IMG/VR virus record: IMGVR_UViG_3300037245_000765
Span: 1 to 40,007 of that record
DNA from: a virus
Strand: one strand, 5' to 3'
Length of the DNA stretch: 40,007 bases
The position numbers and the translations under genes are program-made. Shown one piece after another: positions 4,776 to 11,494 of the stretch (within the stretch, counting starts at the first letter, position 1; every line of letters starts with the position of its first letter). The notes under the pieces were generated by a model. It worked only from the letters and a program-made list of their open reading frames with translations, was not told where the DNA came from and made no database searches.

Positions 4776-5678
4776 CTATGCCCCCTGCGGTACCCCCGCC
4801 ACGCTCCACAACGTCCGCTGTTCTTCGTTCCGTGCCCGAATCGCTTTCGCGAGATTCTTCAACGCAGCCTCATGGTAGGATTCTTTGATCTCAAATCCAC
4901 AGAACCGCCGGCCGCGTTTCAGGGCGACGTAGCCCTCGGAACCGATGCCCGCGAACGGGCTGAACACAATCTCGCCCGGATTCGAGAACAGCCGCACCAG
5001 CCGATCAATCACACCGAGCTGTAACGGGCAGATATGCTTCGTGTCTTTTTCGCTACGCCCGGCGGCGACGTTCAGAGTGTCTGTCTCGCGGATATCCGAC
5101 CAGCAGCATTCAGCCCACTCGATCCATTCGTCGCGACTGACCTCATTCTCGGAGGTGATCCGCACCGCGTTCTCGCCGGGAGCCACAAACTTGAGCAAGT
5201 AGTCCGGCAGGGCGCCGCGCGACCGTGCCCGGTCGGCTTCCAGCCCAGAGAATTGAAGCTCCCGCGAGTGCGTGCGGATCGCTTGGCCCTGCGGATTCTT
5301 CCGCACACACCAATCGTACTCAAAGACCAGTCCCGCCCGTTCGCCCAGTCGGATGTTCATCCCGCGAAAGTCGAACAACCCCTGCCCCCCGGCCCGCTTC
5401 ATGCGTGGTATCTGCGCGACATGCACCATCACCACCCGCCCCGGCTTCACGATGCGAGCGAGTTGCCGATAGAAAAACGACAGATGCAGCTTGCTTTCGT
5501 TCGCCGGATCGTCGCTGTTGCCGATGTCGCAGGCGTCTTCGGTATAGGCGTAGAGGCTGGGGAACGGTGGCGAGAACACGGCTAGATCGACCGCGTTCGG
5601 CGGCATCGTCGCCATGCCCTCGATGCAGTCGATCAGATCAAGCTGATACTCGCCTTCAATCTCGAATTGTGGAGGCAT
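4776..5678 (-). CDS. Beta-class site-specific DNA methyltransferase
   Basis: The 300-residue protein has catalytic motif IV SPPF at residues 36-39, early in the chain, and the AdoMet-binding motif I FSPFAGIGSEG at about 239-249 followed by GFEIKESYHEAA. The order IV, target recognition region, then I is that of beta-class amino-methyltransferases (N4-cytosine or N6-adenine). SPPF does not by itself settle which base is modified. The centre (about 110-220) would hold target recognition. The start overlaps the end of the helicase gene by 23 bases, so the two are translated together. With no restriction nuclease nearby, protection of phage DNA from host restriction is the likely role. Confidence 0.9.
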   Translation of the reverse strand: MPPQFEIEGEYQLDLIDCIEGMATMPPNAVDLAVFSPPFPSLYAYTEDACDIGNSDDPANESKLHLSFFYRQLARIVKPGRVVMVHVAQIPRMKRAGGQGLFDFRGMNIRLGERAGLVFEYDWCVRKNPQGQAIRTHSRELQFSGLEADRARSRGALPDYLLKFVAPGENAVRITSENEVSRDEWIEWAECCWSDIRETDTLNVAAGRSEKDTKHICPLQLGVIDRLVRLFSNPGEIVFSPFAGIGSEGYVALKRGRRFCGFEIKESYHEAALKNLAKAIRARNEEQRTLWSVAGVPQGA

Positions 5679-7143
5679 CGCGGAAGATCCTTTCTTGTTG
5701 CTCGGTGTCCTCTTGCACCCGCTTCGCTTTCACGAGCACTGTTTCGATCATGGGCCGCTCAAGTGAGGTCATCGGGATGTGTACGTTCAGCGGATGCGTA
5801 GCCCCGTATCGGTTCGATCGCTTCACGGCCTGGTAGTAGCTCTCGTACGAATCCTGTAGGCCGGAAAACACCTGTCGCGTAGCCCGATGCAGGTTCAGCC
5901 CGAAGCCGAGTATCTTCGGCTTGCTGATAAGCGTTTTGATCTCGCCCGCCTTGAACGCCTCGACTAGCCGCTGTCGCGCGTCGTGAGGTGTGTCGCCCTT
6001 GATGCTCGCCGCGTTGGGCAGCTCCCTTTCCAGCGTTGCCTGCTCGGCATTGTAAATGCACCAGACGATCGTGGATTCGCCCGGCCACGATTCGACCAGC
6101 TTCCGTATGAAGCTCGGTTTGTTCGTCGCAATCGGCTTGCCGCGATGGGTGCCTTTCGCGATCTGTGAGAGCACCGACCGCGACGTGATCCCGCCGACGT
6201 TCGTTGCGAACAACTGACCATGCTCCCTGTAGACTAGATCGCGTTGTGCCTCGGTTAGCGGGACATGGTGCATATGCACATTGATCGGCGGCAGCGGCTC
6301 CGTGTTGTCATGCCAGCCGTACACTCCCGGATTCGTTAGGAAGATGCACCAGTGCGACAACGCGCGATAGAACGGGCGCAGGGCGTGCGCCTTGAGCACC
6401 CACCGCTCGGTTGTCTGCCCACGATTCACGAAGTAGCGGGCTAGAAACTCGTTCACGGTTCGGGACGCATCGCAGAACACCGCATGATTTGCGTACTCGA
6501 TCCGGTCATTCGGCGCCGGCGTACCCGTCATCGCGAGCTTCCATCGCAGACCACATCCGAGCCGCAGGCAGACTTGCCCCCACTTGCCGTAGTGCGATTT
6601 CAGCATGGACGATTCGTCGAGCACCAGACAGGCCAGCCGGCCCTGTGGCGTATCATCTCGTAGTCCATTGTAGTTCGTAATGCCCACTTGCGTTTTACCA
6701 CTACGCAGCCACGTGGAAAGGTCGCAGGCTGCGATCTGCTCGATCGGGAAGTCGTCACCATAGAACCGATGCAGTTCACGGATCGTCTGCGGGATAACCA
6801 TCAGCGGCGACACGATCAGAACGCACTGGTTCGGCCGCAGGGTCGGAACGATGTGCCGGATGTACTCGGCCGCGATCAGTGTCTTGCCCAGTCCGCAGTC
6901 GGCGAAGATCGAGAACCGCCCCTTGTCCAACGCCATTCGCGTGATGTCAGCCTGGTAGTCGAACAGGAATGACGACGGGTTGTACGTGATTCGCTTCCCG
7001 TTGCGGGATGGTTGATCGAGTAACGCCGCATACTCATCGGGCACAATCGCAGTACACCCCTGGATGCGATACGCCGGCAGTTGCTTGATCCGCAGGAACA
7101 GCCGATAGTCTTCAAGCCGGCTGGGGTGTAGCGTGATTCGCAT
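5656..7143 (-). CDS. SNF2/DEAD-type superfamily 2 helicase
   Basis: With the start at the ATG that overlaps the previous stop (TGATG), the protein is 495 residues long. Helicase motifs are visible in order: Walker A ADCGLGKT at 81-88, VSPLMVIPQT (motif Ia) at about 111-120, LDESS (motif II) at 175-179, MTGTPAPND (motif III) at 205-213, and QAVKRSNRYGA (motif VI) near 438-448. This places it with phage SNF2-like ATPases, which remodel or translocate on duplex DNA. Residues 1-60 are a phage-specific N-terminus. The coupled methyltransferase suggests a shared job on phage DNA. A role in replication-fork handling with RusA is the other option. Confidence 0.9.
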   Translation of the reverse strand: MRITLHPSRLEDYRLFLRIKQLPAYRIQGCTAIVPDEYAALLDQPSRNGKRITYNPSSFLFDYQADITRMALDKGRFSIFADCGLGKTLIAAEYIRHIVPTLRPNQCVLIVSPLMVIPQTIRELHRFYGDDFPIEQIAACDLSTWLRSGKTQVGITNYNGLRDDTPQGRLACLVLDESSMLKSHYGKWGQVCLRLGCGLRWKLAMTGTPAPNDRIEYANHAVFCDASRTVNEFLARYFVNRGQTTERWVLKAHALRPFYRALSHWCIFLTNPGVYGWHDNTEPLPPINVHMHHVPLTEAQRDLVYREHGQLFATNVGGITSRSVLSQIAKGTHRGKPIATNKPSFIRKLVESWPGESTIVWCIYNAEQATLERELPNAASIKGDTPHDARQRLVEAFKAGEIKTLISKPKILGFGLNLHRATRQVFSGLQDSYESYYQAVKRSNRYGATHPLNVHIPMTSLERPMIETVLVKAKRVQEDTEQQERIFRDASTIRD

Positions 7144-7349
7144 CACTCTCCCTCCTTCGCGTCGAGGGCTTTGCGAATTTCTTCCCACAGAGTATCACCA
7201 TGCGTGGGGTCGTTGAGCCCCACCGTGGCACGGGTCGCTATACGTTCCAGCAACCCCCGCAGCCGCTCGGCCTCGGCCTTGAGGTCGTCGCGTTCGTCTG
7301 CGATTTGGCAGCATTCCACAGGCCAGTCGTCTGGGTAGCACTCAACCAT
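7143..7349 (-). CDS. Small coiled-coil protein, 68 residues
   Basis: The ATG at 7349 is preferred because GATGAAAGGAATGTG precedes it; the frame extends further upstream but overlaps the RusA gene. The peptide starts MVECYPDDWPVECCQIADER, then forms a long charged helix (DDLKAEAERLRGLLERIA). Three Cys occur near the N-terminus. It ends one base into the helicase start (TGATG). No family is recognised. Confidence 0.65.
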   Translation of the reverse strand: MVECYPDDWPVECCQIADERDDLKAEAERLRGLLERIATRATVGLNDPTHGDTLWEEIRKALDAKEGE

Positions 7350-8030: not shown

Positions 8031-8689
8031 TCTGTCATCCTCCCGACTTCCAGCACCCAGACCCAGGGATTGTTAGCCCAGGTGTACGGTCGATAGTCTG
8101 CTGGCCATGAGCCCATATCACCTTCAAGCAATTTTCGCTTGGCGTTGATGTTGTCCCAGAGTTTACTAAAATCAGGGATGCGCCGTGCCTCTCTGGCAGT
8201 CGGGGTGAGCCATTCCAACTCATAACTACCGGCGGCATAGCGGATACCCTCGGCCCGCGCATCAGCGCACGTAATCTCCTGCACCCGCTCGCCCCGCACG
8301 CCGACCAGGTCGCGCGCGATGCGGCTGGCCCACTTTGGCATGAATCGGCCTGACAGGTACGGCCGCTGCCATTCCCAGCGTCGCGACTCCCCATCAACCA
8401 TGACCGGCACGCCATCGGCCGCGTAGACGACTACGCCTGAGCCAGAACGGCGCAGGCCTTCCCGCACCCAGAGCCGGTCGCCGGGAACGCCGTAGGGGCA
8501 GCGTGGCGAGAGAATGTGTCGCCGCTCGCCGCCGAACGTGCATTCGTAGTAGGTGCCGTCCGTCGCTAGCTCGATCCGTTCACAAACAACTGTGGGCTGC
8601 GGCTTCATCACCCGCCGCGTCTGCGTCTTCGTGCCGTCAAGTATCGCGCGGACCATAGGGCCGCTGAAAAGGATCCCTCGCTCGCTCAC
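8027..8689 (-). CDS. ASCH-like phage protein
   Basis: The 220-residue protein opens with the typical phage ASCH-type signature MSERGILFSGPMVRAILDGT followed by KTQTRRV. Later come CPYGVPGDRLWVRE and a C-terminus with FSKLWDNINAKR and NPWVWVLEV, both also characteristic. ASCH domains resemble the PUA RNA-binding fold, and phage versions are widespread with no settled function. Nucleic-acid binding or modified-nucleotide recognition is the usual suggestion. The start is a GTG in a GTGA overlap with the upstream gene, behind GCGGAGGGCGAGTC. Confidence 0.87.
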   Translation of the reverse strand: MSERGILFSGPMVRAILDGTKTQTRRVMKPQPTVVCERIELATDGTYYECTFGGERRHILSPRCPYGVPGDRLWVREGLRRSGSGVVVYAADGVPVMVDGESRRWEWQRPYLSGRFMPKWASRIARDLVGVRGERVQEITCADARAEGIRYAAGSYELEWLTPTAREARRIPDFSKLWDNINAKRKLLEGDMGSWPADYRPYTWANNPWVWVLEVGRMTE

Positions 8690-9417: not shown

Positions 9418-9846
9418 TCATCTCCACTCAGTGAGCCGGGCATCAATGTTGTCCTGCGTGTCCGGCCCCACTATCGGCTCGCACCAATCAACAACTTCGG
9501 CAGCATGCTCTAGCTCGGCTGCATCGCTTACCAGGATAGTGCCAGGCCGAAGCGGTGTTCCGCTAGGATTGTTGCAGATGCTTCCTGCCTGCACGGCTGT
9601 GTGGTACTGTGATTCGTCAACGCTGATACCAACATTGGCCAGAGGGCCGTAAGACCAGGAGCCCTTGATCGCATACTCATAGACACTCACGAAGATTGCC
9701 CCGCTATTCTTGTTATTCGGCCGGCGCAGGACAGCTCCGATGGGAAACATAGGAACCGGGACCGGAACAGATACGTCATGCGTCTCACGGTCGTCTGCGA
9801 GCCAGTTGACAACGTATTCTGTTGTAGCCACTCCCTGCTTAGCCAT
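9418..9846 (-). CDS. Hypothetical protein, 142 residues
   Basis: The start is the ATG at 9846 (MAKQGVATTEYVVNWLADDR), behind GGAGGTTGACG. This sits in a 20-bp segment that is identical at the next gene border upstream. The protein has a strand-rich centre (PMFPIGAVLRRPNN, then SGAIFVSVYEYA) and an acidic helical end (AAELEHAAEVVDWCEP). No family or motif is recognised. It overlaps the upstream gene's last codons by eight bases. Confidence 0.65.
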   Translation of the reverse strand: MAKQGVATTEYVVNWLADDRETHDVSVPVPVPMFPIGAVLRRPNNKNSGAIFVSVYEYAIKGSWSYGPLANVGISVDESQYHTAVQAGSICNNPSGTPLRPGTILVSDAAELEHAAEVVDWCEPIVGPDTQDNIDARLTEWR

Positions 9847-9857
9847 CGTCAACCTCC
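9838..9857. repeat. 20-bp gene-junction repeat, copy A
   Basis: It is identical to 10103-10122. On the minus strand it reads GGAGGTTGACGATGGCTAAG, combining ribosome binding site, EVDDG-stop codons and the ATG GCT AAG (MAK) start. A 13-base part recurs at 9408-9420. Confidence 0.92.
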
Positions 9858-10111
9858 TCTACCGTCTCTCGGTTCTTGTGTCCTTTCCCATGGTGCCCCC
9901 TCGCGCAGATCGGCGTTGCCACCTTTTCGCCGTCCCAGCCCTCAGAAACAGTCACCTTGCGAATCATGCTCACCCGCGGTTCATCCACACCAAGATCCCG
10001 CAGACCGTTACAGACCGCATCGCGAGTGTCACCTACTACGGAGACGGCCACACCACCATCCCGCAGAATGATCCCACCGTACAACCGGAACACCTTGCTG
10101 CCCTTAGCCAT
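9839..10111 (-). CDS. Hypothetical protein, 90 residues
   Basis: The start is the ATG at 10111 (MAKGSKVFRLYGGIILRDGG), behind GGAGGTTGACG. It has a predicted alternating strand-helix pattern (VAVSVVGDTRDAVCNGLRDL, then RVSMIRKVTV) and a His-rich end (CARGHHGKGHKNRE) that might bind metal. It ends EVDDG, like the gene upstream, because both stops lie in the same duplicated 20-bp junction. No family is recognised. Confidence 0.65.
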   Translation of the reverse strand: MAKGSKVFRLYGGIILRDGGVAVSVVGDTRDAVCNGLRDLGVDEPRVSMIRKVTVSEGWDGEKVATPICARGHHGKGHKNRETVEEVDDG

Positions 10112-10122
10112 CGTCAACCTCC
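10103..10122. repeat. 20-bp gene-junction repeat, copy B
   Basis: This is the partner of 9838-9857, at the opposite border of the 90-residue gene. The repeats therefore flank that gene exactly. Confidence 0.92.
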
Positions 10123-10424
10123 CTTTCGTTCATCGCCCTCGTTGCGTGGTACAACAAGCTGCGCTGGGCAGCCCCGCGGCGCCGAGCCAGCCGCCGATAT
10201 GCGATATGGAATCTCTGCCGGCGCAGACAATCGGCGCACCATTCATCGCGTGGCAGTGGATCGCCTTCGCGGTTGTACTCCATCCAGCATGGCGCTTCGT
10301 TTTCAGCTTCGGCTTCGCAACGATAATCGCCGCGCCGCGCCCTAGCCTTGTTCGCAGCGCGGTACAGTAGGCCCCAGCGCATCGCGGCGCCGATGATTTT
10401 TGCGCGCCTTACACTGTTCATCAT
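10104..10424 (-). CDS. Basic Cys-containing protein, 106 residues
   Basis: This very Arg-rich protein has four Cys residues (YRCEAEAE, APCWMEY, EWCADCLRRQRF). The CxxC near residue 63 and the two earlier Cys could form a small zinc site. The many Arg residues suggest nucleic-acid binding. The start overlaps the initiator's stop by ATGA. No family is recognised, and DNA or RNA binding is inferred from composition only. Confidence 0.65.
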   Translation of the reverse strand: MMNSVRRAKIIGAAMRWGLLYRAANKARARRGDYRCEAEAENEAPCWMEYNREGDPLPRDEWCADCLRRQRFHIAYRRLARRRGAAQRSLLYHATRAMNEREVDDG

Positions 10425-11494
10425 TCACCGTCCCTTTCCGCCCGCATGAGCCAAGCCGTCGACACCCATGCTGGCCGGTTTCGCCAGTCTTCGGGCGCTT
10501 GCGTTGCGTGTAGCCGACGTGTAGCCTGGGTCAGCAGCCCCGCCAGCTCGGGCGCCGGCAACTTGTCCAGCTCGGCCAGGTGCTCGGCTCGTTCGCGGTC
10601 AGCCTGCGATTCGGCCGCCCGCTGCTGGTCGCGGTGCTTGTCGGTCGCTGCTACGCTAACCTGCCCCGGCCCCAGCTCCGCACTCGGCTTCCCGCCGTGC
10701 CATTCCGCCGGATCGTCGTCGTAGCGACCCTGGTTAAACCACGTCGCGGGGTATGGCGTAAACTTCCCGGCCTGGCCAGCAGAGCTGCGAGCGTACATCT
10801 GAACACGCTCAAGCAGCCACGCGGCCGATTCGTTGTGTTCAACGTCAATGACCGTCAAGGCTTTGCGGATGGCGATGAAGGCCTTTTGCTTGCCGACCCG
10901 CCGAGGGTATGCGTAGTAAATTTCCTCGACCTGTTTTTTTGTTACGCTTGATACTGACATCGCACGCTCCCTGGGTCTAGTTCTCTTGGTCTTGTTCTCT
11001 TGGTCTAGTTCTGTTCGCTTAGCGGTACGGGGGTGTTCGCTTAGCGGTACGGTCGAACCAGCCTCAGCGAACGTACGCTTAGCGGTACGTTCGCTTAGCG
11101 GTACGCGATATCGGTTCGTTCGCCCTGCTGAATTGGAGCCCGCTCGCTGCACCGTAATCAGTCCCAACTTCGCGAGATGGCTGATGCACCCGCTCACGCC
11201 AGACAGCGACATGCCGCAATCTTGGGCGACCCGCCGTAGCCCCGGCCAGCACTCGGCATTATCCCCGACGCGATCCTGAAGACAGGCATACACCAGTTTG
11301 TCGCCAGGACTTAGATCTGTCCTGGCGGCGACATCCTTGTTAGTTTTCAGGAAAGCCACGACCGGGGTCTCCCGCTGGAGGAACCCCGTACGCCCTGACA
11401 TCCGGCAGGTCCAGCCGGGAGACCGTTCGCGGATACGACGGCTCGGGGATACGGGGCTCGTCCAAGGAGAGCAAGTTGGGTTGATTCGGACCAT
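10421..11494 (-). CDS. Winged-helix replication initiator (lambda O-like role)
   Basis: Residues about 45-125 form a winged-helix domain: PVVAFLKTNKDVA, DLSPGDKLVYACLQD, CWPGLRRVAQDCGMSLSGVS and HLAKLGLITVQR, as in phage replication proteins with HTH_36-like domains. Residues about 130-161 are encoded by four DNA iterons and read as repeated VPLSE and RTAKRT. The C-terminal part (about 185-357) contains YYAYPRRVGKQKAF and a Trp-rich end, a plausible loader- or helicase-interaction region. The ATG at 11494 gives the longest form. A second ATG at 11401 (MSGRTGFLQRE) lies nearer the conserved domain, but neither has a strong ribosome binding site. The gene is coupled to the downstream gene by ATGA. 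It probably binds the iterons inside its own gene and opens the DNA. Confidence 0.82.
   Translation of the reverse strand: MVRINPTCSPWTSPVSPSRRIRERSPGWTCRMSGRTGFLQRETPVVAFLKTNKDVAARTDLSPGDKLVYACLQDRVGDNAECWPGLRRVAQDCGMSLSGVSGCISHLAKLGLITVQRAGSNSAGRTNRYRVPLSERTAKRTFAEAGSTVPLSEHPRTAKRTELDQENKTKRTRPRERAMSVSSVTKKQVEEIYYAYPRRVGKQKAFIAIRKALTVIDVEHNESAAWLLERVQMYARSSAGQAGKFTPYPATWFNQGRYDDDPAEWHGGKPSAELGPGQVSVAATDKHRDQQRAAESQADRERAEHLAELDKLPAPELAGLLTQATRRLHATQAPEDWRNRPAWVSTAWLMRAERDGE
10971..11008. repeat. 14-bp tandem repeats, purine-rich on the minus strand, beside the iterons
   Basis: The plus strand reads TTCTCTTGGTCTTG (10981-10994) and TTCTCTTGGTCTAG (10995-11008), with a partial unit CTGGGTCTAG at 10971-10980. 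The minus strand is almost all A, G and C with very few T. It directly abuts the iteron block, in the position of the easily melted element of a lambda-type origin. Confidence 0.85.
11013..11105. repeat. Four 17-bp iterons, candidate replication origin
   Basis: Copies at 11013-11029, 11035-11051 and 11089-11105 are identical (GTTCGCTTAGCGGTACG). The copy at 11073-11089 differs by one base (GTACGCTTAGCGGTACG). Start spacings are 22, 38 and 16 bases. Each unit contains the near-palindrome CGCT-T-AGCG with GTAC to one side, so each could bind a protein dimer. They lie inside the initiator gene, between its DNA-binding domain and its C-terminal part, as in lambda gene O. Confidence 0.85.

Follow-up and report, generated by a model that had tools for sequence, protein, structure and literature searches.

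The window analysed here, the whole of a 40,007-base virus record that is possibly a fragment, carries a replication initiator gene on its minus strand. The neighbouring genes encode an SSB, an exonuclease VIII-like protein, RusA, an SNF2-type helicase, and a DNA methylase, and on these assignments they constitute a module for phage replication and recombination. The immediate neighbours of the initiator gene match no named family, and no DnaB, helicase loader, primase, or gene P homologue was recognisable among the open reading frames and families searched in this possibly fragmentary record. Helicase loaders diverge fast. The methylase and SNF2-type helicase reading frames are adjacent (4776-7188) and each matches part of phrog_16, so the two appear to be fused in other phages. 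The features of the initiator gene are listed below.

10421-11359, minus strand: replication initiator gene; reading frame open to 11494, predicted GTG start
11156-11317, minus strand: winged-helix (HTH_36) coding part; PF13730, E 3.9e-08, amino acids 60-113
11089-11105, minus strand: iteron 1, CGTACCGCTAAGCGAAC on the gene strand; frame 2, gene position 390
11073-11089, minus strand: iteron 2, CGTACCGCTAAGCGTAC on the gene strand, one base changed; frame 0, gene position 406
11063-11076, plus strand: degenerate half-iteron in inverted orientation, within the 38-bp gap that separates iteron 2 from iteron 3
11035-11051, minus strand: iteron 3, CGTACCGCTAAGCGAAC on the gene strand; frame 2, gene position 444
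11013-11029, minus strand: iteron 4, CGTACCGCTAAGCGAAC on the gene strand; frame 0, gene position 466
10974-11012, minus strand: purine-rich 14-bp tandem repeat, 2.8 copies of AAGAGAACTAGACC; TRF score 71
10907-10957, no strand: least stable 50 bp of the initiator gene; mean nearest-neighbour dG -1.28
10700-10924, minus strand: C-terminal module (C-module), amino acids 191-265, YPRRVGK...YPATWFNQGRYDDDPAEW

Profile comparison identifies the product of 10421-11359 as a replication initiator. Most of the protein (amino acids 52-300) matches phrog_270, 'replication initiation protein', with an E-value of 3.5e-33, and several O-like families in PHROGs match it as well. The Pfam search reported HTH_36 alone. 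The GTG at 11359 is probably the start codon, which gives a protein of 312 amino acids, and the first ~45 codons of the open reading frame 10421-11494 are probably untranslated, because a good candidate ribosome-binding site (GGGAG) lies about 9 nt upstream of this GTG. An imperfect inverted repeat, GGTCTCCCG ... CGGGAGACC, was noticed by eye just upstream of the proposed start (11365-11425) and is a possible operator or hairpin. An AlphaFold2 model based on 32 sequences (mean pLDDT 79) places a low-confidence stretch between a winged helix and a helical C-module that are both modelled with confidence. The low-confidence residues, 101-129 of the model, are predicted to be disordered and cover most of the part encoded by the iterons and the tandem repeat. 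In a comparison with the PDB, the best rows for the winged helix were staphylococcal plasmid RepA (4pql/4pt7, Z 10.6). Many other winged helices, at Z 9-10, nearly tie with RepA, the gap being about one Z unit. The winged helix is proposed to be the iteron-binding domain.

A preliminary description of this DNA had reported four 17-bp iterons, three identical and one with a single change, placed inside the initiator coding sequence between the winged helix and the C-terminal part. The four copies were recovered at 11013-11105, and the domain coordinates bear out their position. On the plus strand the iterons read GTTCGCTTAGCGGTACG (11013-11029, 11035-11051, and 11089-11105) and GTACGCTTAGCGGTACG (11073-11089). 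Their spacing is uneven at 16, 38, and 22 bp, that is, one 16-bp step, one 38-bp step (16 + 22), and one 22-bp step, and an inverted repeat, 11063-11076/11085-11098, is paired at 13 of 14 positions. No other copy of the iteron exists in the 40-kb record when up to two mismatches are allowed. In 20 simulated 40-kb sequences, 200 bp never held more than two copies of any 14-mer, so the clustering of the iterons is not due to chance. A search of IMG/VR for the exact iteron returned only two single-copy matches, both within unrelated structural-type genes, and by this measure the iteron sequence of this phage is new.

The purine-rich tandem repeat that had been described as following the iterons does lie directly 3' of them in the direction of the gene. 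Its TRF score is the highest of the window, and the iteron array and the 14-bp array are the two top-scoring tandem repeats of the window. Purines account for 73% of the gene strand over 45 nt at this repeat, which places it in the top 0.5% of the window. The 14-bp unit is not a multiple of three in length, and the reading frame therefore shifts between copies.

Duplex stability falls from 11020 downwards, directly after the iterons, with a trough at 10900-11030, so the easily opened part comprises the tandem repeat and the stretch beyond it. The 50 bp starting at 10910 have an instability z of 2.9 in nearest-neighbour stability and belong to the top 0.1% of the window. A low-stability stretch thus adjoins the repeats, as in an initiator-internal origin layout, and 10907-10957 is proposed as the first-melting site. 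The GC-skew switch near 11050 that had been suggested as a supporting sign does not appear; the cumulative curve declines over nearly the entire window and does no more than level off at about 10.5-12.5 kb. As the genes examined are all on the minus strand, GC skew is uninformative as an origin marker here.

The repeats can be separated from the peptide that they encode. Iterons 1 and 3 are translated to VPLSE and iterons 2 and 4 to RTAKRT; because identical DNA is read in these two ways, the iteron is a DNA element. The iterons and the 14-bp repeat cross shifting reading frames, which argues that selection acts on the DNA and not on the peptide. The initiator gene contains 41 out-of-frame pairs of 9-mer repeats; 300 synonymous-codon shuffles averaged 0.49 such pairs and had at most 6. 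Neither chance nor peptide repetition explains the repeats. Direct repeats under DNA-level constraint are thus present inside the initiator coding sequence, another property of an initiator-internal origin layout.

No close DNA relatives of this phage were found in the phage collection searched, and homologues were therefore surveyed instead. A profile scan of IMG/VR together with phage records yielded 65 open reading frames with both winged helix and C-module, 39 of which were kept at less than 80% identity. A genome-contig search for relatives gave just two distant C-module loci, and searches of viral contigs with the winged helix only and with EBPR gp8 gave no further relatives. Out-of-frame 8-mer repeats in the linker were significantly above synonymous shuffles in 24 of the 39 homologues, with a density of 6.8 per 100 nt in linkers versus 0.13 outside them in these genes (52-fold). 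Iteron sequences differ from phage to phage. The preliminary description had proposed a new version of the lambda arrangement; the novelty holds for the iteron sequence, whereas the layout is not peculiar to this phage but widespread among phages. Moreover, 87-90% of the genes show a G+C drop of 9-12 points over the 60 nt that immediately precede the C-module.

The spacing between adjacent repeat copies in the survey has a sharp maximum at 22 bp, and the double of this step appears at 44-45 bp. A spacing of 21-24 bp occurs in 20 of 28 clusters (50% identity or less), compared to a mean of 4.0 and a maximum of 7 in shuffles. In nine Arthrobacter phages, the iterons keep a step of exactly 22 bp and the frame rotates from one to the next, with cores at gene positions 313, 335, 357, and 379 (frames 0, 1, 2, 0) and with varying spacer residues; the cores of LittleTokyo lie three bases earlier. 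GAACC boxes follow 22 bp after these iterons at 11-13-bp steps. The phage studied here is compatible with the survey pattern through its 22-bp step, its 16-bp step, and its 38-bp step (16 + 22), in the middle of which the inverted half-iteron lies. No description of a 22-bp rule across phages was found in the literature searched, most subscription journals being outside it, and priority is not claimed. Strong dyad symmetry was seen by eye in the iterons of homologues L092, L045, L049, and L085 (for L045, GTCGCT-GTG-AGCGAC), and suggests that dimers may bind these iterons as in lambda.

The C-module is common to many phage initiators with different N-termini. A version of about 75 amino acids (YPRK.GK ... 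HPATWLNQGRW.DD) was observed at many loci (L001-L119). The module is mobile, and no fewer than two types of N-terminal domain are found combined with it. In the initiator studied here it gave no Pfam family above threshold and, in a structure search, no clear match to any PDB chain; we propose that it is the contact for the helicase or its loader. In genes with an N-terminus other than the winged helix, frame-shifting short repeats precede the C-module in 16 of 26 cases and are often polypurine, which suggests that a second repeat array may travel with the module. Purine excess in this C-module-only group is modest (0.805 vs 0.770 in synonymous shuffles), and a strong purine excess was not found in the winged-helix group. 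AACC is four times denser near the C-domain. GAACC was rejected as a universal second motif, much of its excess being reproduced by synonymous shuffles (11 vs 4.4 genes), and as a second motif it is no more than suggestive.

Lambda is among the closest known systems. Lambda ori and the Stx phage origins likewise have four iterons in the middle of the gene, between the N-terminal DNA-binding part and the C-terminal part, and an easily melted stretch after them on the gene strand (PMC7466680). The order of iterons followed by a melting region, attributed earlier to both systems, agrees with the annotated ori inside gene O (L030). As a positive control, lambda O gave 13 out-of-frame pairs, a number reached in 0 of 300 shuffles. 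The earlier label of a lambda-type origin is accurate for the layout but not for the protein, as lambda O matches PF04492 (Phage_rep_O) at 5.7e-36, whereas the initiator here belongs to HTH_36/phrog_270 and had no PF04492 match in the Pfam search. The iterons of lambda are spaced by 20, 24, and 23 bp, unlike those here, and where lambda has an A+T tract, this phage has the 14-bp tandem repeat (47% G+C) and, in addition, a stretch richer in A+T. The minimal unwinding unit of lambda consists of two iterons and the A+T tract, and O binds single strands (PMC7466680). Plasmid Rep proteins bind repeated elements of the unwinding region in single-stranded form, which provides a precedent for a repeat within the melting zone (PMC4081077).

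Other systems share parts of this layout. In the RepA_N plasmid pSK41, the N-terminus of Rep binds four Rep boxes located centrally in rep, and the ori encodes the linker (PMC5703833). The winged-helix N-terminus, the ori-encoded linker between two domains, and, for the proposed origin, the location within the initiator gene are points of likeness (PMC5703833), whereas the initiator studied here comes from a phage, has no RepA_N Pfam match, and carries a C-module without a detectable match to solved structures; in RepA_N initiators the C-terminal domain is DnaD-like. SPP1 oriL lies within gene 38, which encodes the origin-binding protein, and comprises direct repeats together with an A+T-rich unwinding element (PMC6316719); by this published description, it also has repeats and a melting element within the initiator gene, but SPP1 differs in its second origin and its known loader and helicase (gp39, gp40). 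EBPR podovirus 2 gp8 and the Arthrobacter initiators (Kepler, Renna12) combine the two domains found here with iterons and then short tandem repeats in the linker, in shifting frames. Both their iterons (AAACCCGGAAC; GGGGTGMAC) and their second repeats (GAACCATCA; GAACCGTCCTT) differ from those described here, and the Arthrobacter phages show a regular 22- and 11-bp phasing that is not seen in this phage.

Taken as a whole, 10900-11105 is very likely the replication origin of this phage, embedded where the phage's own initiator gene encodes the linker. The computed basis comprises the repeats, their position, DNA-level selection, low duplex stability, and recurrence in homologues and lambda O. 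Weighing against this reading are the irregular iteron spacing, the missing GC-skew switch, and the failure to recognise a helicase, loader, or primase in the families searched. Theta-type replication would start from this segment. The best reading is that the origin works like lambda ori and pSK41 ori, and that it may be called lambda-like by layout only.

The iterons could instead be operators, bound by the winged-helix protein or by a different regulator so as to repress or silence the gene. HTH_36 is a generic domain, and in the structural comparison transcription factors of the winged-helix type come close to RepA; however, the sites are located some 250-345 bp inside the gene with a melting zone adjoining, they recur in initiator homologues, and lambda O is a proven case of an origin. 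We regard a purely regulatory role as improbable. Replication slippage without function might also be considered, given that the linker is predicted to be disordered and that linkers generally accumulate repeats. Units of 14, 16, 22, and 38 bp all shift the frame, so that expansion alone would break the gene, and both the unique spacers between the iterons and the sharp 22-bp spacing across clusters in rotating frames argue against such products, which makes this explanation very improbable. That the repeats code for a useful repetitive peptide is hardly credible, even though the frame is open throughout and a few homologues (phiPsal1) have in-frame repeats only, since one DNA sequence is read here in two ways and the repeats of the survey are mostly out of frame.

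For the origin itself, a sequence of steps can be suggested. The N-terminal winged helix of the initiator would bind the four iterons, and the bound initiators would strain the DNA 3' of the array. Based on stability and on the lambda precedent, the tandem repeat and the least stable stretch (10907-11012) would then open. The initiator may hold the purine-rich strand in single-stranded form, and the C-module may recruit the replicative helicase or its loader.

A wider reading is tentative, and we consider it possible rather than probable as a whole: a large unrecognised class of phage origins would follow one spatial rule across unrelated DNA and combine it with a second array and a mobile C-module. 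According to this rule, iterons would lie about 22 bp apart, equal to two helical turns, a spacing that forces rotating reading frames. The iterons would be followed by short repeats at intervals of about one turn or of a few bases, and these by the melting zone; the whole layout would be written within the linker of the initiator. The C-module would recognise the second array as a strand-specific site for single-strand binding, and would take it along when N-terminal domains are swapped. The analysis provides a predicted origin for a phage without a close relative in the phage collection searched. The survey suggests that the position of the origin may be readable from sequence in many uncharacterised phages, the sign being frame-shifting repeats that are phased at roughly 22 bp and lie between the initiator's two domains. 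Recognition between initiator and iteron would become testable over dozens of natural pairs, and the uncharacterised mobile C-module is highlighted as the likely helicase-recruiting or single-strand-binding part.

Further repeats occur elsewhere in the window. A direct duplication of 127 nt (1384-1510 and 1647-1773) is 96% identical, with the copies 263 bp apart. An identical 20-nt sequence, CTTAGCCATCGTCAACCTCC, is present at 9838-9857 and 10103-10122, 265 bp apart, at the joints of two consecutive small genes, and a similar pair of 23 nt is found at 8686/8883.
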